NCBI GenBank assembly: GCA_947625285.1
Contig: CANQNS010000010.1
Location: 1-63,992 of the forward strand
Source: an uncultured Oscillospiraceae bacterium
GTDB lineage: Bacteria > Bacillota > Clostridia > Oscillospirales > Oscillospiraceae
Reading direction: 5' to 3'
Length of the DNA stretch: 63,992 nt
Under the pieces are notes generated by a model. It ran no database searches. It saw only the letters and a list, made by a program, of their open reading frames with translations, and was not told where the DNA came from. This document shows, in pieces, positions 39,071 through 51,743 of this stretch (positions are counted from its first letter, which is position 1; the number at the start of each line of letters is the position of its first letter). A program made the position numbers and the translations under genes.

Positions 39071-42000
39071 CTATCGGATGATGACGCGGCCGTTTTTGAC
39101 CTTGATATGCCGGCCGCAGACATCGGCCTCGTAGCCGTCCCAGCCGGCGGGCAGATTGGGCCGGACCGTGAGCCGGCCATTCTCCAGCCGGATGCCCAGC
39201 AGGTCCTCCAGCGCCACCCGGAAAAACCACCCCGCCGCGCCGGTGTACCAGCTCCACATGGCCTGGCCGTAGTGGTCCGGGTTGGCGGACACGTCCGCCG
39301 CCAGGACCCAGCTCTCCGCGCCCCACAGGTCCCCGTCGTGCCGGGCCGGCAGCAGGTCCAGCAGCATGGCGGCCCCCAGGTCCGTAAAGCCCTCCCGCAG
39401 CAGGGCCGACGCCAGCCATACCGCGCCGTGGGTGTACTGGCCCCCGTTTTCCCGGAAGCCCGGCCCGCAGGAGCGGATATAGCCGGGGTCCCGGCCGGCG
39501 TCGGCAAAGGGGGGCGTGAACAGCTTCACCAGCCCGTGGGCCCGGTCGTACAGATGGTCCGCGCAGGCCGCCAGAGCCGTGCGGACCCGCTGGGCGTCCG
39601 CCCGGCCGCTGAAGGCCGCCCAGCTCTGGGCGATGGAGTCGATGGCGCAGGCGGCGTCGCCCACCCCGCCCAGGGGCGCGCCGTCGTCCCACCAGCCCCG
39701 CAGGTACCAGCTTCCGTTCCAGCTCCGCTCCGCCGCGGCGGTCAGGGCCTTTGCCGCGTCGGAGAACAGCTTCCCGGCACCGTCCTGCCGTCGGGCCAGC
39801 AAAGCCGCCAGGCGGTCGGCGGTGTGGATGAAGAACCAGGTCAGCCACTGGCTCTCGCCGCCCACCTTGTCCATGCCGTCGTTCCAGTCGCCGGAGCCGG
39901 TCAGCAGCAGCCCGTGCGGCCCCCGGCCCCGGGCCAGAACCCGCTCCGCCGCCCGGCGGGCGTGCTCCAGCACCGTGTCCTCGTCCTGGGAGGCATGGGG
40001 GATGAAATACCTATCCTTCTCCTCCGGGCCCAGGGGCGGCGCCTCCAGCCAGGGGGTCTTCTGGTCGCAGAAGTCCGTGTCCCCGGTCTTTTCCACATAC
40101 TCGCATACCGCCCAAGTCAGCCACAAGAGGTCGTCCGAACACCGGGTCCGGACCCCTCTCGGTCCCGCCGGGGTCTCATGCCACCAGTGGAGCACGTCCC
40201 CCTCCCGGAACTGGCGGGCGCAGCAGGTCAGGATGTGCCGCCGGGCCCGGGCGGGCGCGATCAATATGAGATTCGTCACGTCCTGGAGCTGGTCCCGGAA
40301 GCCATAGGCCCCTCCGGGCTGGTACATACTGGTCCGGCCCATGATCCGGCAGGACAGGGTCTGATAGGCCGCCCAGCCGTTCATCATCCGGTCCAGGTCC
40401 CGGTCCGGGGTGCGGATGTGGACCCGGCCCAGGGTGGCCCGCCAGCCGTCCCGGACCCGGACCAGCTCCTGCGCCGCCCGGTCCGGGTCCGCCAGGGCGC
40501 GCAGGGTCTCCGCGCTCTCAAAGCCGCAGACCAGCACGCTCACGCCGCCGCCTTTCCACAAGGCCCCAAAGCAGGGCCGCAGGCCCGCGCCGGTCCGGCC
40601 GTCCATCCGGCCGGACAGCCAGGCCGTTTCGTCGGCGGTGAAGCCGGACAGCTTTTTACTGCACAGGGCGCGGAACACCTCCCCCGGGTACAGGCCCCGG
40701 GGATTTTCCGCCGTCAGGCACCCCTCGGCCCAGCCGGTGATCACGCAGGGCGCGTCGGCGGCGTCGGCGGCCAGGCGCAGGGGCAGATGCCAGCCGATAT
40801 AGGCGTCGTCGCCCCCCTCGATGAGCATGATCCGGGCCCGATAGCCGTTGGGCACGAAGGCGGTGAGCTTCACGTCCTCATGCTCCCAGCGGGTCCAGCC
40901 GAAGCCGTTGATGACCCGGCAGGGGGCGTCCACGGCGAACAGGCTCCTGCGGCCCTGGGCCGTTACCAGCTCCAGGGTCTCCCCGCCGGAGGTAGCCATG
41001 GGGTCGTTCAGCCAGGGCCCCACCGGGCATTCCCGGGCGTTTTCCAGCCACATGAAGCCTGTGCCGCAGTCGGCGGCCAGGTACCCGAACCGGCCGTTGG
41101 ACAGCACGTTGCACCAGGCCCGGGGCGGCAGGGGCGGGGTCTGGTAGCGGACCGCGCCGCCGGGCAGATGCTCCACCTTCGGGGCCTGCCGGCCCCGGAC
41201 CGGGGCGGGACGCAGCCCCGGCAGGCCAGCGTATTTCCGCTCCTGGACGGGCCTGACTACCACCGCCGCGGCGGCGATGTCCTCCCCGCCGGCGAACCGC
41301 ACGCCGCCCCGAAGGTCCTCGAAAGCCCCCAGGCCGTACTTGTCCAGGTACCGGCGCAGCGCGTCCCGGCGGGGGTGCAGATAGGCCCCCTCCTCCCCGG
41401 TGTCGATCACCAGGTCCGCCCCCACGCCGCAGGCGGTGATGAGGGCGTGACGCTTGATGGTGCGCCGGGCCTCGTCGTCCGGGCCCTCCCGCGCCGGCAC
41501 ATACACGATGGGCAGGTCCCCGGACAGCCCCTTTTTCCAAAGCGCCTCCCGTGTGGAGCCGGGCCGGGCCTCCACCCGGGGCGAGCAGACCGCCCCGCAC
41601 AGCTCGAAGGCCGCCCGTATGCCGTCGGCGGTCATGCCCAGCAGAGAGGCCATGGCGGCCGCCATATCCGCCGCGCCGCCGGTCAGGATGCGCCGGGCGC
41701 CCTCCTCCGCCTCCACGCGGCTGCCGCCGCAGCACAGGGCCAGCACCGCGCACCCGCCCTCCGGCAAAACGGCTGTCACCGCCGCCGGCTCGTTCATCTG
41801 CCAGCCGCCGCCGGCGGCCAGGCGCAGATCCACCGTGGCCGCCAGACACAGCCACGTCTCCGGGAGCCGGTCCCGGGCCAGCCGGCGCACCAGCACCGCG
41901 CCCCGGTGGGCCGTGATCTCCAGCCCCAGCCGCCAGAAGGCCGGGTGGGCCGCGAAATCCTCCTGCCGGGCCAGCACCGGCTCGAACCGCACCGAGAGCT

Positions 42001-45000
42001 TCCCGCCGCTGGGACCGCTGACGCGCCGCAGCTCTCCCCGCTCGCCGCTGGCTACGGCCATGGAGGCGGACGAGACGGCCCCGGACCCGCTCTGCCGGGC
42101 GGTGAAGGTCAGGGTCCCGCTCTCATACCGCCAGGGGAAGAAGGCCGCCTGCCGCCGGGAGGGGGTCAGGGGCAGCCCCTCCACCGCCAGCTCGAACCCA
42201 TCCGGCCGGTACATCAAAAGCCCGCCGCTTTTGGCAAAGCAGCGGCCGTCGTCGCAGGCCAGCAGCGAATACACCCCGTTGGACATGGGGAACCAGGCCG
42301 GGGCCGCCGGCACATGGCCCGGTCCCTCCCACTGGAACGCGGGCAGCTCCTTCCGGCTCTCCGGGGGGCGGGCCAGAGGACTGCGGCTCCGGCGCAGCAC
42401 CGTCCCGCTCAAAGGCACCCGCTCCGCCAGCAGAGGCCGGAACGCCGCCATGGCACGGTCCGCCATGAAGTACCGCCGCAGAACGCCCCCCGCCAGGCAG
42501 TTGGCCGCGGCGCAAAGGCTCATGCCCAGATGGTGGCTCATGAAGCAGGCCACCACCTCGCCCCCCTTGCCAGTCCTTCCAGGGGTCATGTCCAGGGCCT
42601 CGTAGAAGCCGTACCGGCCCCACATGCCCATCCCTTTCAGCCGCCGCAGGTTCTTCACCGCCGCCTTGGGATGCACGCACAGCGCCAGGAAGCTGGCGTA
42701 TGGGGCGATCACCAGCTCCCCGTCCACGTCCCGCCGCAGGGCCAGCGGCCCGGCCCCGTGGGCCTTGTAGCGGTAATCCATCCCCGCGTCCAGGGAGAAG
42801 AACGCGCTCTCCGAGCAGCCCCAGGGGGCCTTGGCCCGGGCGCCTTTCCGCTTTTGGGCATACAGGCAGAACCGGGCCGTCTCCCACAGCATGGACCCGC
42901 CCACCAGGGGCAGGAACAGCTCCGGCATCAGATACTCGAACATGGACCCGGACCAGCTGGCCAGCCCCCGCCAGCCGTCCAGGGCAAGCTGGGCCCGGCT
43001 CAGGCTCTGCCAGTGGCGCACCGGGACCTCCCCCCGGGCGCAGGCCAGATAGCTTGTCAGCCGGGCCTCCGAGGCCATCAGGTCGTAATAGCCGGGACTA
43101 GGCTCGTCCGAGGCCGGGTCCAGACCGATGCGGAAAAGCCGCTTTTTCTCGTCGTACAGCGCGGCCAAGTCCATCCCGTCCGCCAGGGCCCGGGCCCGGT
43201 CCGCGATCTCCGGCCGGCCATGGGCGGCCATGCCGCCCGCCAGGCAGATCAGGCACGCGCACAGGTTGCCGCTGTCCACCGTGGACACATAGGCCGGCTG
43301 CAGGGGCGCGCAGGTGCGGGTATCGTACCAGTTATAGAGATGCCCCTTCCACTTGGGCAGCTTCTCCACCGTGGCAAGGAGCCGGTCCGCCAACGCCGCC
43401 GCGTCGCTCTCCGCCGCCGCGCCCAGCTCTATGGCCGCCAGGGCCGACGCCAGCGCCAGGCCGATGTTGGTGGGACTGGTCCGATGGGCGACCCCCTTGG
43501 GGGGCTGGACCTGGAGATTGTCCGGGGGCAGCCAGTGGTCGGCCCGGGTGCACAGGCCGCTGAAGTAGCCCCAGATGGCCTCGGCGGACTTCATGAGAAA
43601 GGCCCGGTCCGCGTCGGTCAGGTCGTTTTTCGCCCGCAGAGGCAGGCCGGAGGCATAGGCGAACGCCGGCGCCGCCAGCCACACCACCCCGGCGGCCTTC
43701 CCCGCCGGGCCGGGGGCCAGCAGGGCCATGAACGCCCCCAGCGCCACGGAGAACCACATGGCCGCGGGCCGGTCCCGGCCGCTCTCCGTCTGAGCCGCCG
43801 GCACCCACTGGAGCATATTTTTGTGGCTGACCTTCATGCGCCACAGGGCCGTGACCATGGCCGAGGCGCAGGTATAGCCCTCCCAGGGCAGAAAGATCGT
43901 CCGGGCGAAGAACCGGGTCAGGGACCCGCCCGCGCCCCGGAGCACCCCGCTCCGGCAGCGGAACCGGGCGTCGCCCACCCGCACGAAAAGGCCCGCGAAG
44001 GCGTCGTGGACCGCGTCGGAGCCCAGGCATACCAACGCCAGGGCGGCCGCCCACCGCAGGGATGGGACGAACGCCCCCAGCGCCACCGCCAGCAGGGTCG
44101 CCGGGGCCACCAGGCTCCGGCGCAGGCTGTCAAAAAGCCGGAACCGGTCCAACGCCGTCAGATCCTGCCCGGCCTTGCCCAGCCAGGGCAGGTTCTGCCA
44201 GTCGCCCCGGGTCCAGCGATGCAGCCGCCGGAACCAGGCCGCCGCCGTCACCGGGGCACCGTCCGTCAGCTCCACATCGCCCATATAGGCCCCCCGCAGA
44301 TAGGCCCCCTCCAGGGCGTCGTGGCTCAGGACCGTGTCATCCTCGAACCGGCCGTCCAGACAGGCCAGGTACGCCGCCGCGTCCACCACGCCCTTTCCGG
44401 CAAAGCCGCCCCGGTCGAACAGGTCCGTGAACAGCTCCCCCGTAGGCGCGCCGTAGGGGTCCGTGCCCCCCTGGCCCGCCCAGATCCGGGCAAAGTCCGT
44501 GGCCGTGGCCCGGTCCAGCTCCACCGCCATCCGGGGGTGGATGACCCCGTGGCCTTTGACCACCACGCCCTTTTCCACCACCGGCGCGTTCAGCGGGTGC
44601 ATGGCCGCGCCGATGAGCTGCCGGGCCGCCCCCGGCACCAGCCGGGTGTCCCCGTCCAGGCACAGCACGTACCGGGCCCGCAGGTCCTGGACGCTCCCGG
44701 CCAGGCACTTCAGCCGGTTGGGCCGGTCCTGGGTCAGCCGGACCAGCTCCAATATGGCCCCCCGCTTCCGCTCCCAGGGCGCGTATACCTCGTCGGCGTT
44801 GTTCCAGGCCGGGTCACGGGTCAGCAGGAAGAATCCGCCGCCGTATCTCTCGTTCAGCTCGTTCACCGCATCCCGCACCGGGTCCAGCCGGTCCGCCGTC
44901 TCCGGCGGGAACACCGTCCCGTCCGGCAGGTCCGCCAGCAGCGCGAATAAAAGCTGGTCCCCGCAGTCCCGGTTGGCCAGCTTATACTCCTCCAAACGCC

Positions 45001-45970
45001 GGACCAGCCGTGGGCCGGTCTCGCCGTCCGTCAGCAGGGCGGACACCACGCACACCGTCCGTCCCTCCGGGCCCAGGCCGTCCTCCAACGCCAGGCGCAT
45101 CAGCCGCCGGGGCGGGACGGCGCGCAGCAGCGCCGCGTCCAGCCACACCCGGGTCAGCTCCGACAGGGGCAGCAGCGTCAATACCGCCGTCCAGAAGCTG
45201 CCCGTCAGGCCCCAGGCCAGCGCCGCCAACGCCGCCGGTAAAAATACCCGCGCCGCCATATACCCCGCGCCGGTGCGCCGGGTCTGGGGAAACAGGTACT
45301 CATGCAGCCCCCGGTCCAGGGCCGTCCGCGCCATCTCCAGGGCCGGGACCTTTTCCTTTTTCGCCAAAAGCTGTATCCGCTCCCGGTACCGGGCCCGGCT
45401 GATCTCGTCCATGGCCGGGTATGTGCCGTCGGAGCGCAGCAGCGCGTCCACCGGGTCGGACTTCTCCAGCGCGTCGGTCAGGTCCATGTCCGCCACCGTC
45501 CGCAGGCTGGTGAAAAGCTCCGCCGCGGCCGCCGTGTCCACGCCCGGCTCGGCCAGGGCTTCGATAAGGGCCGCCCGCAGGGCCGCGCCCACCAACGCCC
45601 CCTCGTTCTCCGGCAGCTCCACCGCCCGGCGCGCGCCGGTGAGATAGGCCGTGACGCGCTCCTCCGTCACAGGCCCCGCCCCGGTCAGGCCCCGGCACAG
45701 CTCCACCAAAGCCGCTCCTCTGCGGCACCGGCGCAGCCGGCCCCCGGCCCGCAGGGCCGCCGCCGCCAGCTCCGTCTCCCGCCGGGCCAGATACTCGTTG
45801 TCCGCGAACCAGGCCGGCTCCTTCTCGTCCCGGCTCTTGGCCGCGACGGCCCCCATGGCCTTCTCCAGCCGCCGGGCCGTCCGGCGGCCCGATATCGTTC
45901 CTTTCATGGGGATGCTCATGGCCGCCTCGCCGCCCCATCCGGCCAGGCGTTGTGCGCTCATCTTTTCCAT
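39071..45970 (-). CDS. cyclic beta-1,2-glucan synthase-like protein (GT84 - glycoamylase-like - GH94)
   Basis: About 2299 residues from the ATG at 45970 (MEKMSAQRLAGW); the exact start is uncertain because no strong ribosome site is seen and further ATGs follow within 25 codons. Order: charged N-terminal region; membrane segments near residues 250-290; GT84 domain with DGDTRLVPG (~440), FEDDTVLSHDALEG and WTRGDWQNLPW (~587); membrane blocks to ~800; a glycoamylase-like domain (~800-1170, SLDAGMDYRYKAHG, FLALCVHPKAAVKNL); then beta-sandwich and GH94 domain (~1600-2299) with SDDLLWLTWAVCEYVEKTGD and GSGDWNDGMDKVGGESQ. Proteobacterial NdvB/Cgs are ~2800 residues; this is shorter. The family polymerises UDP-glucose into beta-1,2-glucan, and the GH94 part trims chains. 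Single-gene unit. Confidence 0.88.
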   Translation of the reverse strand: MEKMSAQRLAGWGGEAAMSIPMKGTISGRRTARRLEKAMGAVAAKSRDEKEPAWFADNEYLARRETELAAAALRAGGRLRRCRRGAALVELCRGLTGAGPVTEERVTAYLTGARRAVELPENEGALVGAALRAALIEALAEPGVDTAAAAELFTSLRTVADMDLTDALEKSDPVDALLRSDGTYPAMDEISRARYRERIQLLAKKEKVPALEMARTALDRGLHEYLFPQTRRTGAGYMAARVFLPAALAALAWGLTGSFWTAVLTLLPLSELTRVWLDAALLRAVPPRRLMRLALEDGLGPEGRTVCVVSALLTDGETGPRLVRRLEEYKLANRDCGDQLLFALLADLPDGTVFPPETADRLDPVRDAVNELNERYGGGFFLLTRDPAWNNADEVYAPWERKRGAILELVRLTQDRPNRLKCLAGSVQDLRARYVLCLDGDTRLVPGAARQLIGAAMHPLNAPVVEKGVVVKGHGVIHPRMAVELDRATATDFARIWAGQGGTDPYGAPTGELFTDLFDRGGFAGKGVVDAAAYLACLDGRFEDDTVLSHDALEGAYLRGAYMGDVELTDGAPVTAAAWFRRLHRWTRGDWQNLPWLGKAGQDLTALDRFRLFDSLRRSLVAPATLLAVALGAFVPSLRWAAALALVCLGSDAVHDAFAGLFVRVGDARFRCRSGVLRGAGGSLTRFFARTIFLPWEGYTCASAMVTALWRMKVSHKNMLQWVPAAQTESGRDRPAAMWFSVALGAFMALLAPGPAGKAAGVVWLAAPAFAYASGLPLRAKNDLTDADRAFLMKSAEAIWGYFSGLCTRADHWLPPDNLQVQPPKGVAHRTSPTNIGLALASALAAIELGAAAESDAAALADRLLATVEKLPKWKGHLYNWYDTRTCAPLQPAYVSTVDSGNLCACLICLAGGMAAHGRPEIADRARALADGMDLAALYDEKKRLFRIGLDPASDEPSPGYYDLMASEARLTSYLACARGEVPVRHWQSLSRAQLALDGWRGLASWSGSMFEYLMPELFLPLVGGSMLWETARFCLYAQKRKGARAKAPWGCSESAFFSLDAGMDYRYKAHGAGPLALRRDVDGELVIAPYASFLALCVHPKAAVKNLRRLKGMGMWGRYGFYEALDMTPGRTGKGGEVVACFMSHHLGMSLCAAANCLAGGVLRRYFMADRAMAAFRPLLAERVPLSGTVLRRSRSPLARPPESRKELPAFQWEGPGHVPAAPAWFPMSNGVYSLLACDDGRCFAKSGGLLMYRPDGFELAVEGLPLTPSRRQAAFFPWRYESGTLTFTARQSGSGAVSSASMAVASGERGELRRVSGPSGGKLSVRFEPVLARQEDFAAHPAFWRLGLEITAHRGAVLVRRLARDRLPETWLCLAATVDLRLAAGGGWQMNEPAAVTAVLPEGGCAVLALCCGGSRVEAEEGARRILTGGAADMAAAMASLLGMTADGIRAAFELCGAVCSPRVEARPGSTREALWKKGLSGDLPIVYVPAREGPDDEARRTIKRHALITACGVGADLVIDTGEEGAYLHPRRDALRRYLDKYGLGAFEDLRGGVRFAGGEDIAAAAVVVRPVQERKYAGLPGLRPAPVRGRQAPKVEHLPGGAVRYQTPPLPPRAWCNVLSNGRFGYLAADCGTGFMWLENARECPVGPWLNDPMATSGGETLELVTAQGRRSLFAVDAPCRVINGFGWTRWEHEDVKLTAFVPNGYRARIMLIEGGDDAYIGWHLPLRLAADAADAPCVITGWAEGCLTAENPRGLYPGEVFRALCSKKLSGFTADETAWLSGRMDGRTGAGLRPCFGALWKGGGVSVLVCGFESAETLRALADPDRAAQELVRVRDGWRATLGRVHIRTPDRDLDRMMNGWAAYQTLSCRIMGRTSMYQPGGAYGFRDQLQDVTNLILIAPARARRHILTCCARQFREGDVLHWWHETPAGPRGVRTRCSDDLLWLTWAVCEYVEKTGDTDFCDQKTPWLEAPPLGPEEKDRYFIPHASQDEDTVLEHARRAAERVLARGRGPHGLLLTGSGDWNDGMDKVGGESQWLTWFFIHTADRLAALLARRQDGAGKLFSDAAKALTAAAERSWNGSWYLRGWWDDGAPLGGVGDAACAIDSIAQSWAAFSGRADAQRVRTALAACADHLYDRAHGLVKLFTPPFADAGRDPGYIRSCGPGFRENGGQYTHGAVWLASALLREGFTDLGAAMLLDLLPARHDGDLWGAESWVLAADVSANPDHYGQAMWSWYTGAAGWFFRVALEDLLGIRLENGRLTVRPNLPAGWDGYEADVCGRHIKVKNGRVIIR

Positions 45971-46012
45971 ACCTGGGATTTTTCCCGCGGCCGGGGGAGA
46001 ATATACTCCGTC

Positions 46013-46060
46013 GGCTGTCAACGAAAAAGACTTGACAGCCCGCCGCCGATGGTGTATGAT
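46013..46060 (+). promoter_or_regulatory. ylxM-ffh promoter with overlapping inverted repeat
   Basis: Perfect -35 TTGACA (46032-46037), 17-base spacer, TATGAT (46055-46060). The -35 is part of a 9-bp inverted repeat GGCTGTCAA (46013-46021) / TTGACAGCC (46032-46040) with a 10-base spacer, so the site could be an operator. The left arm also supplies a TTGACA on the opposite strand toward the glucan synthase-like gene, but without a well-spaced -10 (TATATT is only 10 bases away). Confidence 0.8.
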
Positions 46061-46104
46061 AAGCAGGCTGTAAAGCAATAATCCTTAACACAAGGAGGCG
46101 CGGC

Positions 46105-47777: not shown

Positions 47778-47840
47778 TTTCAACATTCATTTTTTGAATT
47801 TGAAAAATAAAAAACCAACTGTATTTTGGAGGAACGAAAA

Positions 47841-48158
47841 ATGGTCAAGATCCGTTTGAAGAGACAGGGCGCGAAGAAGGCCCCCTATTACCGCGTGGTA
47901 GTGGCGGACAGCCGCTCTCCCCGGGACGGCCGCAACATCGAGGAGCTGGGCACCTATGACCCCATGGTCAAGCCCGCCGCCATCGACATCGACCTGGAGC
48001 GCGCCAAGTACTGGATCGGCTGCGGTGCCCAGCCCACCGACACCGTCCGCGGTCTGCTGAAGCTGGCCGAGGCCGGTCAGCCCAAGGCGGAGGCCGAGCC
48101 CAAGGCCCAGGCCAAAGCGGAGGCCGAGCCCAAGGCCGAGGCCGACGCCGCGGAATAA
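47841..48158 (+). CDS. rpsP: ribosomal protein S16 with charged C-terminal repeat
   Basis: 105 residues from the ATG at 47841 (GGAGG at 47828-47832); an upstream TTG in the same frame lies in that site. Core S16 motif [40 protein letters not shown]. Residues ~80-105 are an extra [20 protein letters not shown] tail. Component of the 30S subunit body. AT-rich 60 bases after ffh may carry a promoter. Confidence 0.97.
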
Positions 48159-48170
48159 GGCGGCAGCCCC

Positions 48171-48401
48171 ATGAAGGAACTTCTCACCTATATCATCCAG
48201 AGCCTGGTGGACGACCCCGGCCAGGTGACCGTCACGGAGCGCGCCGGCTCCGGCGGCACCGTGCTGGAGGTGCGCGTGGCGGACGGGGACATGGGCAAGG
48301 TCATCGGCCGCCAGGGCCGGATCGTGCGCCAGATCCGGGTGCTGATGAAGGCCGTGGCCCAGCGTCAGGGCAAAAAGGTCTCCGTCGAGATACTGGATTG
48401 A
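48171..48401 (+). CDS. khpA: KhpA, KH-domain RNA-binding protein (YlqC)
   Basis: 76 residues, one type II KH domain with the GxxG loop in GKVIGRQGRIVRQIR. In Firmicutes KhpA works with KhpB in RNA binding and affects division; the place between rpsP and rimM is standard. Confidence 0.95.
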   Translation: MKELLTYIIQSLVDDPGQVTVTERAGSGGTVLEVRVADGDMGKVIGRQGRIVRQIRVLMKAVAQRQGKKVSVEILD

Positions 48402-48883
48402 AAAAGCGATATTTAGAGGCGGGGCGGATCGTGAACACCCACGGCGTCCGGGGCGAGGTACGCATCCAGCCCTGGGCGGACGAGGCGGCGTTTCTGACCC
48501 GCTTCCGCCGTTTTTACGTGGACGGCCGGGCCGTTGCCGTGCGCTCCTGCCGGGTCCACAAGGATATGTGCGTGGCCGCGCTGGAGGGCATTGACGACGT
48601 GAACGCCGCCATGGCCCTGAAGGGCAAGGTGCTGTTCATCGACCGGGACGACGCCCATCTGCCCGCCGGGGCCGTGTTTTTGCAGGACATCATCGGCGCG
48701 AAGGTGGTGGACGAGGCCGGGAAAGAGCTGGGTGTGCTGGCCGACGTGATGAGCGAGCCCGCCGCCAGCGTGCTGGTGGTAAAGGGTGACCGGGAGATCC
48801 TGATCCCCGACGTGCCGGCCTTCGTGCTGAAAAAAGACCCGGACAACTGCGTCGTCACTGTGCGGCTGATAGACGGTATGTAA
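48398..48883 (+). CDS. rimM: 16S rRNA processing protein RimM
   Basis: 161 residues, TTG start overlapping the khpA stop (TTGA). N-terminal barrel (EAGRIVNTHGVRGEVRIQPW) and C-terminal PRC barrel (DIIGAKVVDEAGKELGVLAD, ILIPDVPAFVLK). It assists maturation of the 30S head with ribosomal protein S19. Confidence 0.95.
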   Translation: MKKRYLEAGRIVNTHGVRGEVRIQPWADEAAFLTRFRRFYVDGRAVAVRSCRVHKDMCVAALEGIDDVNAAMALKGKVLFIDRDDAHLPAGAVFLQDIIGAKVVDEAGKELGVLADVMSEPAASVLVVKGDREILIPDVPAFVLKKDPDNCVVTVRLIDGM

Positions 48884-48885
48884 CT

Positions 48886-50154
48886 ATGCGCATCGACATC
48901 CTGACCCTGTTCCCGGAGGCGGTGCGGCCCATGATGGACTCGTCCATCCTGGGCCGGGCGGCCAAAAAGGGACTGATCGAGATCAACTGCATACAGATAC
49001 GGGACTTCACCGACAACAAACAGCAGCAGGTGGACGACTATCCCTATGGGGGCGGCTGGGGGTGCGTGATGATGGCCCAGCCGCTGAAAGCCTGTCTGGA
49101 CCACGTGACAGCCCAGGCGGGGCCCCGCAGACGGAGGGTCATCTATATGTCCCCCCAGGGGGCCCGGTTCGACCAGGGCCACGCCCGGCGGCTGGTGTCG
49201 GAATATGACCATCTGGTGCTGGTCTGCGGCCACTACGAGGGCGTGGACGAGCGGTTCATCCAGCTTTGCTGCGACGAGGAGCTGAGCGTGGGCGACTTCG
49301 TGCTGACCGGCGGGGAGATCCCGGCCATGGCCGTTGCGGACAGCGTGTGCCGGATGGTGCCGGGGGTGCTGTCGGACCCGGCCTGTTACATGGGCGAGAG
49401 CCACTGGGACGGTCTTTTGGAGTACCCCCAGTACACCCGGCCGGAGACCTGGGAGGGGCTCACGGTGCCGGAGGTGCTGCGCCGGGGGGTCCACAGGGAC
49501 ATCGAGGCCTGGCGGCGGGAGCAGCAGCTCATCCGCACCAGGGAACGCCGGCCGGATCTGTTCGAGGCCTTCCGGCCCCAGACCGAGGCGGACAAGCGCA
49601 CCGTGGACCGGCTCACCGGCCGGGAAAAGCTCGTCTACGACTGCCGCCCGGCCGCGGCGGAGGACATCCCCGCCCTGCTGTCCATCACGGCGGAGGCGTC
49701 GGCCTACATGAAAGAATGCGGCGTGGACCAGTGGCAGGACGGTTTCCCCAACGCGGAGGTGTTCGCCCGGGACATCGCCGCCGGGGGCTGCTGGCTGTTC
49801 ACCCATAACGGCGCCCCCGCCGGGGTAGTCAGCCTGTACATGACGCCGGAGGCGGACTATGCCCGCATCCGGGGCGCGTGGCGGACCCAGGACCGGCCCT
49901 ATGCCACCGTCCACCGGACGGCGGTGAAGGCCGCCTACCGGGGCCGGGGCCTGGCGGACGAGATGCTGCAGCTCTGCGAGGACCTGGCCCTGGGCCGGGG
50001 CGTCGGCAGCGTCCGGGCGGACACCCACGCGAACAACGCCGCCATGCGCCGGCTTTTGGAAAGGCGGGGCTACGAATGCTGCGGCTCCGTGACCCTGACA
50101 GACACCGTAGAAAAGGACCCGGAGCGGGTCTGCTATGAAAAGGTGCTTTTATGA
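48886..50154 (+). CDS. trmD: fusion of tRNA (guanine-N1-)-methyltransferase TrmD with a GNAT acetyltransferase
   Basis: 422 residues in one uninterrupted frame. Residues 1-~230 are complete TrmD: ILTLFPEAVRPMMDSSILGRA, YGGGWGCVMMAQPL, the trefoil-knot AdoMet site LVCGHYEGVDERF and FVLTGGEIPAMAVADSVCR, and the distal ESHWDGLLEYPQYTRP plus WRREQQLIRT. After a ~20-residue linker, residues ~250-422 form a GNAT domain (RPAAAEDIPALLSITAEA, VDQWQDGFPNAEVFARDI, acetyl-CoA loop KAAYRGRGLADEMLQ, NNAAMRRLLERRGY). TrmD makes m1G37; normal TrmD ends at about 240-250 residues. The GNAT substrate is unknown and could be a small amine or a protein. The next gene overlaps its stop by 4 bases. Confidence 0.93.
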   Translation: MRIDILTLFPEAVRPMMDSSILGRAAKKGLIEINCIQIRDFTDNKQQQVDDYPYGGGWGCVMMAQPLKACLDHVTAQAGPRRRRVIYMSPQGARFDQGHARRLVSEYDHLVLVCGHYEGVDERFIQLCCDEELSVGDFVLTGGEIPAMAVADSVCRMVPGVLSDPACYMGESHWDGLLEYPQYTRPETWEGLTVPEVLRRGVHRDIEAWRREQQLIRTRERRPDLFEAFRPQTEADKRTVDRLTGREKLVYDCRPAAAEDIPALLSITAEASAYMKECGVDQWQDGFPNAEVFARDIAAGGCWLFTHNGAPAGVVSLYMTPEADYARIRGAWRTQDRPYATVHRTAVKAAYRGRGLADEMLQLCEDLALGRGVGSVRADTHANNAAMRRLLERRGYECCGSVTLTDTVEKDPERVCYEKVLL

Positions 50155-51743
50155 AAGAGACTATAAAAAATCCGTCGGCTGCTCTCCGCTTCAAGATCGT
50201 CGTTTTTTACACCCTCGTTTTCAGTCTGGCCGCCCACGCCTATATGTACTTCTCTCTGGCCCCCAGCCACGACTCCCTCTCCACGCTGATCAATTCCCCC
50301 GGCGACGGCCAGCACCAGCTCTCTCTGGGCCGGTTCATGCAGCCGCTCTATTGGCTGCTCCGGGGCCGGCTGCCGGCGCCCTGGCTGGTGGGGATGCTGG
50401 CGACGCTTTTCATCTGCCTATCGGTCTGCTTTCTCGCCGCCGCGCTCGATATCGTACGCAAAAGCTCCCTTATCATCCTGTGCGGCGTCCTATCCACCTG
50501 CCTCACCGTCACGACCATCAACGCCACGTATATGTACTGCGCGGACAGCTATATGCTGGCGCTGCTCCTGGCCTGCGCGGGCGTGTGGCTTTGGGAGCAC
50601 TATCCCGATAAGCGCGGCGTCCTGGCCGCGATGCCGCTGTTTGCCCTGTCCATGGGGCTGTACCAGGCCTTTTTCGACGTCGCCATCGGCATGGCGTTGA
50701 TACTGCTCATCAAGGCCGTCATGGATGGAGAGACTTTCCCCGTCCTTTGGAAGCGGGCCCTGCGGTACGCGCTCAGCCTGCTGGGCGGCGGCGTGCTCTA
50801 CTTTGTCTGCGTCGAGCTGGTCATGAGGCTGTCCCATATCGGTATGTCCTCGGACTACGCCGGGCTGCAGCAGATATTTGGAAACGGCTCCGTCAGCATC
50901 CTGCCCTTGCTGAAGCTCATACCCTATGCCTACTTCAACTTTGCCGCGTTCTTCTTCTCTCCCCTCCGGGCCCACAACACCCCCGCGCTGTGTCTGCTCC
51001 GGCTGGCGATGATCTTCTTCGGCCTGTGTATGTGGGTCCGCTGCATCCGCCGGCGGCATATCCGGGGCCCGGAGCTGGCCGTGCTGCTGCTGTGCGCGGC
51101 GCTGCTGCCCCTGGGGCTGAATTTCGTGTACGTACTGAACGGCGGCAACGTACACCAGTTGATGACCTATAGCTATTATTTGGCCTACGCCCTTTTGTTC
51201 ATGCCCATGGAGCTGCGTCCCGCGCTCTCTGAGGGCCGGGAAACGGAAGCTGCGCCGGGACGCCGGATCGGCTGGCCCCGGCTTTGCCAGGGCGCGGCGG
51301 TGGTCCTCTGCGCTTTCATGGTCTTTCACAACATCGTCTTTGCCAACGGGGCCTACTACTACAAGCGGATCGTTTACGACGCATCCAGCCGGTACGCCTT
51401 TTCCATCGTGGAGACCATTGAGCGGCAGCCCGATTATGAGCCCGGCGTGACGCCGGTGCTGATCGTGGGCAGTTTCCGCGATTCCAATGTGGCCCGCGCC
51501 GAGGATGATATCTTCGCCCAGTACCGGCACACGACCGGGATGTGGAACAGCACCTCCGTCACATATGACGGCTCGTTCCGGGCCTTTTCCAGCTTGCTTC
51601 TGGGCCACCCGATCAATATCACCGTTCCCTCGCCCCAGCGGGAGGAGCTCCTCTCCCTGCCGGCGGTCCAGGATATGCCCGTTTTCCCCCAGGATGGTTA
51701 TTGCCGTTTGATCGACGGCGTTATCGTAGTCAAGCTCTCCTGA
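50151..51743 (+). CDS. GtrII-like membrane glucosyltransferase
   Basis: 530 residues with ~11 membrane segments. DGQHQLSLGRFMQPLYWLL near residues 49-68 and the following helices are the pattern of the glucosyltransferase GtrII family (Pfam Glucos_trans_II type), which adds glucose from polyprenyl-phosphate-glucose to cell-surface polymers. The C-terminal ~130 residues are soluble and outside. It starts inside the trmD stop (ATGA) and takes the place where rplS is usual. A GtrA flippase-like gene is at 34452-34886. Confidence 0.8.
   Translation: MKETIKNPSAALRFKIVVFYTLVFSLAAHAYMYFSLAPSHDSLSTLINSPGDGQHQLSLGRFMQPLYWLLRGRLPAPWLVGMLATLFICLSVCFLAAALDIVRKSSLIILCGVLSTCLTVTTINATYMYCADSYMLALLLACAGVWLWEHYPDKRGVLAAMPLFALSMGLYQAFFDVAIGMALILLIKAVMDGETFPVLWKRALRYALSLLGGGVLYFVCVELVMRLSHIGMSSDYAGLQQIFGNGSVSILPLLKLIPYAYFNFAAFFFSPLRAHNTPALCLLRLAMIFFGLCMWVRCIRRRHIRGPELAVLLLCAALLPLGLNFVYVLNGGNVHQLMTYSYYLAYALLFMPMELRPALSEGRETEAAPGRRIGWPRLCQGAAVVLCAFMVFHNIVFANGAYYYKRIVYDASSRYAFSIVETIERQPDYEPGVTPVLIVGSFRDSNVARAEDDIFAQYRHTTGMWNSTSVTYDGSFRAFSSLLLGHPINITVPSPQREELLSLPAVQDMPVFPQDGYCRLIDGVIVVKLS

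Follow-up and report, generated by a model that had tools for sequence, protein, structure and literature searches.

In many bacteria, TrmD is essential and serves as a drug target. Standalone TrmDs of solved structure, namely 3ky7 of S. aureus and the 1uaj series of H. influenzae, are without a C-terminal domain, unlike the protein described here, although 3ky7 aligns end to end with residues 1–238 of that protein (240 bits). Fusions of TrmD to a second enzyme are on record: TrmD-Tm1570 proteins (PF01746-PF09936) have already been published (PMC11187310, PMC1829167), and in the example from Calditerrivibrio nitroreducens (8b1n) the second enzyme domain sits at the C-terminus of TrmD, as it does here. 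The partner in TrmD-Tm1570 is a SPOUT methyltransferase, whereas the partner in our protein is a Gcn5-type N-acetyltransferase (GNAT); PF09936 had no match in our protein at E ≤ 1, so it is not a TrmD-Tm1570 fusion.

On the acetyltransferase side, the closest described protein is a GNAT of Streptococcus agalactiae (2pc1, NP_688560.1). It shares the DQWQ, YPN/FPN, HR, DTH, and CG positions with our GNAT domain but is a standalone protein, and the title of its entry names no substrate. The fold also resembles that of SbzI, the N-acetyltransferase of altemicidin biosynthesis (8zt3 and 8zt4; query TM 0.73–0.79). Identity to SbzI is 20–22%, the latter has a carrier-protein partner and a biosynthetic role, and no membership is claimed. 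TrmD fusions and the GNAT superfamily are both known, and the TrmD-GNAT combination was not found in the literature searched, where no paper on such a fusion appeared by title or abstract and subscription journals were thinly covered.

The fused gene and its two domains

We analyzed a window (the whole stretch of 63,992 nucleotides from an uncultured Oscillospiraceae bacterium) in which trmD continues into a GNAT domain (Table 1). The initial annotation had taken this for a real fusion without frameshift, set in a translation operon, joined at about residues 241–252 and provided with a complete acetyl-CoA loop, and all of this was borne out. Translation of the gene gave 422 residues and then the stop, with 0 internal stops. 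The N-terminal part matched TIGR00088 (trmD, an equivalog model) over residues 1–237 (298.2 bits, cut-off = 195), and the C-terminal part matched PF00583 (Acetyltransf_1) over residues 281–396 (54.6 bits, cut-off = 20.7). A frameshift or assembly artefact is ruled out by the same architecture in at least 60 of 300 genomes of the family. The joint falls in the linker, rpsP and rimM lie upstream, and the loop sequence fits R/Q-x-x-G-x-G/A, which we take to be the acetyl-CoA loop pattern.

Table 1. Positions of the fused gene, its parts, and its neighbors in the window
Feature	Coordinates	Strand	Remarks
rpsP (ribosomal protein S16)	47826..48158	+	PF00886 93.9 bits; listed ORF, true start may be internal
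rimM	48398..48883	+	Directly 5′ of the fusion gene; PF01782 71.3 bits
trmD-GNAT fusion gene	48886..50154	+	422 aa; ATG start, TGA stop
TrmD part	48886..49605	+	Residues 1–240; TIGR00088 and PDB matches
Linker	49606..49641	+	Residues 241–252; 29 residues between fixed points 226 and 254
GNAT domain	49642..50151	+	Residues 253–422; PF00583, domain model, 2pc1 fold
Signature H343 R344	49912..49917	+	Each kept in 105 of 113 fused proteins; also in the standalone consensus
Acetyl-CoA pyrophosphate loop (predicted)	49939..49956	+	Residues 352–357, RGRGLA
Signature R377-x-D379-T380-H381-x-x-N384	50014..50037	+	Conserved across 113 fused proteins
GtrII-like glucosyltransferase gene	50151..51743	+	Next gene, not rsmA; PF14264 126 bits

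The stop of the fused gene and the start of the GtrII-like gene overlap as ATGA. In its own genome (97% complete) the window protein had a single match, to itself, so the TrmD of this cell is very likely the fused form. Between residues 216 and 290, the in-frame ATG, GTG, or TTG codons are GTG 240, ATG 275, and GTG 280. The last two lie inside the GNAT domain, which leaves GTG 240 as the only candidate start ahead of it from residue 216 on. Separate translation of the GNAT is unlikely, because the purine-rich stretch nearest to this sole candidate (GAGG) is 14 bases 5′ of it, farther than usual as judged by eye. On the minus strand 5′ of the operon (39071–46078) is an ORF of 2335 aa that, by eye, looks like a cyclic-glucan synthase or glycoside phosphorylase.

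The N-terminal part would be the cell's TrmD, methylating N1 of G37 in tRNA as other members of its family do. It matched 27 distinct PDB sequences at E ≤ 1e-20, the best being 3ky7. R156, which we take to be the conserved catalytic arginine of TrmD, and E118 (both numbered as in the fused protein) are present in all 159 aligned TrmD sequences. Residue 171 (49396–49398) aligns with the Asp of standalone S. aureus TrmD that is presumably the general base (D169 in E. coli). Glu occupies this position in the window protein and in 158 of the 159 aligned TrmDs, fused or not, with Asp only in L118, and Glu for Asp appears to be a conservative change across the lineage.

Further GNAT models above their cut-offs were PF13302 (31.8 bits, cut-off = 25.4), which gave the longest match (residues 254–396), and PF13508 (29.4 bits, cut-off = 27). 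Modeled alone, the domain reached a pLDDT of 96.2 and a pTM of 0.90. Its closest fold was 2pc1 (TM = 0.86, 32% identity), which is also the closest solved relative by sequence (E = 4.3e-20). The full-length single-chain model had a mean pLDDT of 84.6 and a pTM of 0.53, with pLDDT of 88–98 in the GNAT blocks; the TrmD-Tm1570 structure 8b1n was among its Foldseek matches. Parts of the TrmD active-site region were of low confidence, so this model leaves the relative placing of the domains unsettled.

Consensus sequences of 45 A-type fused, 14 B-type fused, and 41 standalone GNATs have the QW, HR, DT-x-x-x-N, and G positions in common. By these positions we assign the window GNAT to a 2pc1-like family of standalone GNATs, a grouping of our own that has no library name. 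The C-terminal part would be a Gcn5-type N-acetyltransferase of this 2pc1-like kind, marked by QW, HR, and DTHxxN, and the fold model and cofactor loop suggest that it binds acetyl-CoA and acetylates an amine. Two more specific identities were rejected. The S18-alanine acetyltransferase RimI does not fit (TIGR01575: 17.2 bits, cut-off = 86.4). Nor does the GNAT stand in for TmcAL (ac4C34), because PF05636 was present in 80 of 80 genomes, fused or not (40 fused and 40 unfused, four of the latter with decayed tails).

Distribution of the fusion and constraint on the GNAT

In a survey of 300 family genomes that were not selected for the fusion, the window protein was matched in 287, and full-length fusions occurred in at least 60, from 22 of 106 genera among the matches listed, at 51–100% identity. 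The 60 include proteins with partly altered GNAT signatures (e.g., L159 in G191 and L156 in G248) and one, in G129, that was counted as fused and is cut by the contig start. A chance, one-off fusion, which the initial annotation had left as an option, is not supported, given this spread over genera; the frequency is far beyond chance, and the fusion is widespread within one family of gut bacteria. A scan of a species-level collection returned 136 stretches, 124 of them relatives; of the 124, the best 80 are mostly titled Oscillospiraceae. Both domains were in one ORF in 110 of 110 stretches (L001–L110; 91 distinct proteins), a proportion biased by the query, as these were fetched with the fused protein and include copies.

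Beyond the family, near-full-length matches listed at the order level (394 genomes) all fell within the window's family. The GNAT profile matched 28 of 299 phylum genomes at 1e-12 and lay in the TrmD frame only in G000 and G066, both members of the window's family. TIGR00088 matched 147 of 149 phylum genomes, with a TrmD frame of at least 350 aa in 10. These comprised G000 and G066, with a GNAT or GNAT-derived tail, four with PF09936 fused to TrmD (4 of 149 genomes), and four without a C-terminal domain.

We aligned the GNAT region of 113 of the 115 distinct fused proteins, dropping two short ones and including L111–L114. Nine cofactor and signature residues were checked, which are conserved positions in the 41 standalone relatives too. 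Beyond the two in Table 1, those kept were G353 in 104 proteins, G355 in 94, R377 in 112, D379 in 104, T380 in 106, H381 in 109, and N384 in 109. All nine were kept in 86 of 113 (Ala allowed at 355); one was changed in 17 proteins, two in 4, three in L156, four in L159, seven in L111, and eight in L112–L114. Decay of GNAT motifs in relatives, the objection foreseen by the initial annotation, thus holds for the minority that departs at one or more residues (27 of 113) and fails for the 86.

TrmD is the more conserved part, with at least 98% conservation at 109 of 240 positions against 10 of 170 in the GNAT (90 fused proteins). We estimated dN/dS by the Nei-Gojobori method against 28 relatives (identity ≥ 70%, at least 400 aligned codons). 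It ranged from 0.106 to 0.216 in TrmD and from 0.215 to 0.622 in the GNAT, where it was below 1 in all 28 pairs, and dN of the GNAT exceeded that of TrmD in 28 of 28. The GNAT appears to be under purifying selection, the constraint being moderate and weaker than on TrmD because its dN is consistently the higher and its dN/dS reaches 0.622.

The ORF is uninterrupted in L111–L114 and in L159, and in the decayed region of L112–L114 (genus g67) dN/dS is still 0.14–0.24. This low ratio, despite the loss of eight of nine residues, suggests a non-catalytic role for the tail in these proteins. The C-terminal part of L112 had no Pfam match at E ≤ 5, and the tail of L111 passes the PF00583 cut-off (21.0 bits, cut-off = 20.7). 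In L103 and L097 (L024 in part), other residues stand at H343 and D379 and the remainder is intact; taken with L156, these are proteins in which H343 and/or D379 is changed and the signature otherwise largely kept, which may mean an altered substrate or lost activity. L123 (G112) has a 148-residue TrmD tail that is degenerate and GNAT-like (PF13302: 22.4 bits, below the cut-off of 25.4) and unlike the other fused GNATs.

Separate genes, gene order, and history

In genus g4 (L126, L127, L128, and L189), the order is trmD, a Fumble/PanK-like gene, the GNAT, and rsmA, each a gene of its own. The GNAT stands two places downstream of trmD and scores 204–216 bits against the fused-GNAT profile, and the TrmD of g4 nests inside the fused TrmD clade in a quick tree. 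A gene likely to make CoA is thereby placed beside a user of acetyl-CoA. Separate GNAT genes in relatives, which the initial annotation proposed to look for, were found both in this operon and elsewhere in family genomes.

Among the 106 distinct fused loci for which 600 or more bases of downstream sequence were available (five more had fewer), rsmA lay within 400 bases in 63 and farther away in 2, and a PanK-like gene followed by rsmA in 6. Neither was found in 35, among them L017, L022, and L092, in which an rsmA frame is present and overlaps beyond the limit of our script. The window's genus is one of the 35, so the argument from the operon is weaker for the window itself.

Reading by eye of L171–L187 and L212–L240 (45 of 46 loci, L233 being left out, and with the GNAT misdrawn by the ORF picker in several) found no conserved neighbor of the standalone GNAT family. 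Standalone GNATs close to the fused B group are divergent from a miaB-like gene in L174 (radical SAM, UPF0004, and TRAM by Pfam) and L176 (by eye), and these loci have a mutS-like gene too (by eye). Also by eye, the gene directly ahead of the standalone GNAT is rlmH-like in L212 and rsmI-like in L215. Of 30 loci fetched for one family, 8 have rsmI next to the GNAT, and these 8 are close copies; L249 is a loose case, with rsmI at about 1.2 kb.

All trees were built by a quick method without bootstrap. In the TrmD tree, 57 of 59 fused rows fell in one large group, of which 37 rows made up one side of a branch (SH-aLRT = 96) after removal of long rows and of the unfused rows nested in the group. 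The unfused L129 (G028) was nested in the fused clade with weaker support, and g67 (L155, L158, and L112–L114) stood outside the main clade, together with the unfused L168. The GNATs formed two groups, A with 45 rows and B with 14, the window's genus included. The linker between fixed points was 33 or 34 residues in 66 of 69 A-type proteins and 29 in 30 of 44 B-type proteins. Standalone rows lay among the B-type fused rows in quick GNAT trees; in a thinned tree, one branch set off all of A and another all of B (support of 89 and 90).

AU tests rejected neither all fused TrmDs as one clade (p-AU = 0.524), nor all fused GNATs as one clade (p-AU = 0.625), nor B-type TrmDs as one clade (p-AU = 0.363). 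For the GNAT test, 12 prefixes (long branches, L112–L114, L159, and L178) were dropped after L111 and two copies; for the TrmD test, 10 were dropped (g4, L129, L111, L123, and long outgroups); and in both, A-type GNATs and fused TrmDs, named ones excepted, were thinned by half. A single origin of the fusion is not rejected by these alignments. Several origins, to which the placement of g67 and the mixed GNAT trees might point, are not claimed, the single-origin constraints having stood.

Identity between L007 and L093 was 81% in TrmD and 41% in the GNAT, and between the window and L007 it was 73% and 49%. Exchange of the GNAT between lineages is suggested and not established, because B-type TrmDs as one clade were not rejected. 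The linkage of TrmD and GNAT appears not to be strictly inherited, given the A/B pattern and the unfused rows inside the fused clade.

Possible roles of the fusion

We consider it fairly probable that the protein is bifunctional, both of its domains being active side by side, and is made from one translation operon. The GNAT would have been captured by fusion from the standalone family within lineages titled Oscillospiraceae and then kept by purifying selection, and joint expression in the trmD operon (often trmD-rsmA) is probably the main reason why the two domains stay linked. The tether may be helpful and yet not indispensable, being replaceable by co-transcription, because in g4 the operon encodes the two separately. 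A strict tether between TrmD and GNAT is disfavored by several results. As acceptor of the acetyl group, we judge a protein N-terminus, a peptide, or a small amine to be more likely than tRNA. Counting against two working domains, L111–L114 have lost seven or eight of the nine residues and L159 four, and the domain is still present.

Such persistence of the domain, together with dN/dS of 0.14–0.24 in L112–L114 and the other degenerate GNAT-like tail in L123, is what would be expected if the GNAT served mainly as a C-terminal cap or stabilizer of the TrmD dimer, with catalysis dispensable. We regard this as distinctly unlikely for the fusion at large: keeping all nine residues in 86 of 113 proteins would be needless for a passenger, relatives have TrmD without a GNAT, and even the L111 tail is still above the PF00583 cut-off. 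A substrate-channeled translation enzyme, in which TrmD brings tRNA or the ribosome and the GNAT acetylates tRNA, aminoacyl-tRNA, or a ribosomal protein, seems to us unlikely, though it has points in its favor. In 22 of 106 genera (among the matches listed) the GNAT is joined to a tRNA enzyme that is encoded in a translation operon, the split genus g4 keeps its GNAT between the PanK-like gene and rsmA, and a few standalone relatives adjoin RNA-modification genes (L174, L176, L212, and L215). However, most other standalone loci have unrelated neighbors by eye, the adjacency to rsmI comes from close copies, TmcAL is not replaced, and the tether can be absent, as the separate genes of g4 show.

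Charge divides on channeling. Net charge per 100 aa was +0.9 in A-type GNATs, −4.2 in B-type GNATs (the window's type), and −1.4 (21 rows) or −2.6 (28 rows) in standalone GNATs. A-type GNATs were more basic than standalone ones (Mann-Whitney test: P = 3.9e-10, with related rows), which favors channeling, but B-type GNATs were more acidic (P = 0.001), which does not. As a sign of RNA binding, basic charge was rejected for this inconsistency, going up in A-type and down in B-type. There is a slim chance that TrmD docks a tRNA or translation complex and that the tethered GNAT acetylates it, for example at the amino group of an aminoacyl-tRNA or near the anticodon loop. Such docking would link m1G37 to a new step of control or modification that depends on acetylation, one that some lineages would since have lost or turned structural.

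A widespread TrmD-GNAT protein would mean that the m1G37 step is bound to acetyl-CoA chemistry in part of a gut-bacterial family. Since fused, separate-in-operon, decayed, and unfused forms all occur in nature, the reason why enzymes fuse can be tested directly, the question being whether selection keeps joint expression, the tether, or structure.

It is highly improbable that the fusion is a near-neutral read-through into whichever gene lies downstream of a trmD 3′ end prone to such events. Other partners do exist, namely Peptidase_M29 (L124 and L125) and PF09936 in the four phylum genomes above. Against this stand the 22 genera (among the matches listed), the kept active-site residues, and a dN/dS that stayed below 1 in every one of the 28 pairs. 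In L124 (G018) and L125 (G090), the TrmD frame continues into an aminopeptidase, Peptidase_M29, that is complete (534 and 525 bits), to all appearances a second kind of TrmD fusion. In L163, L165, and L191, what looks by eye like the same peptidase is a separate gene next to trmD.
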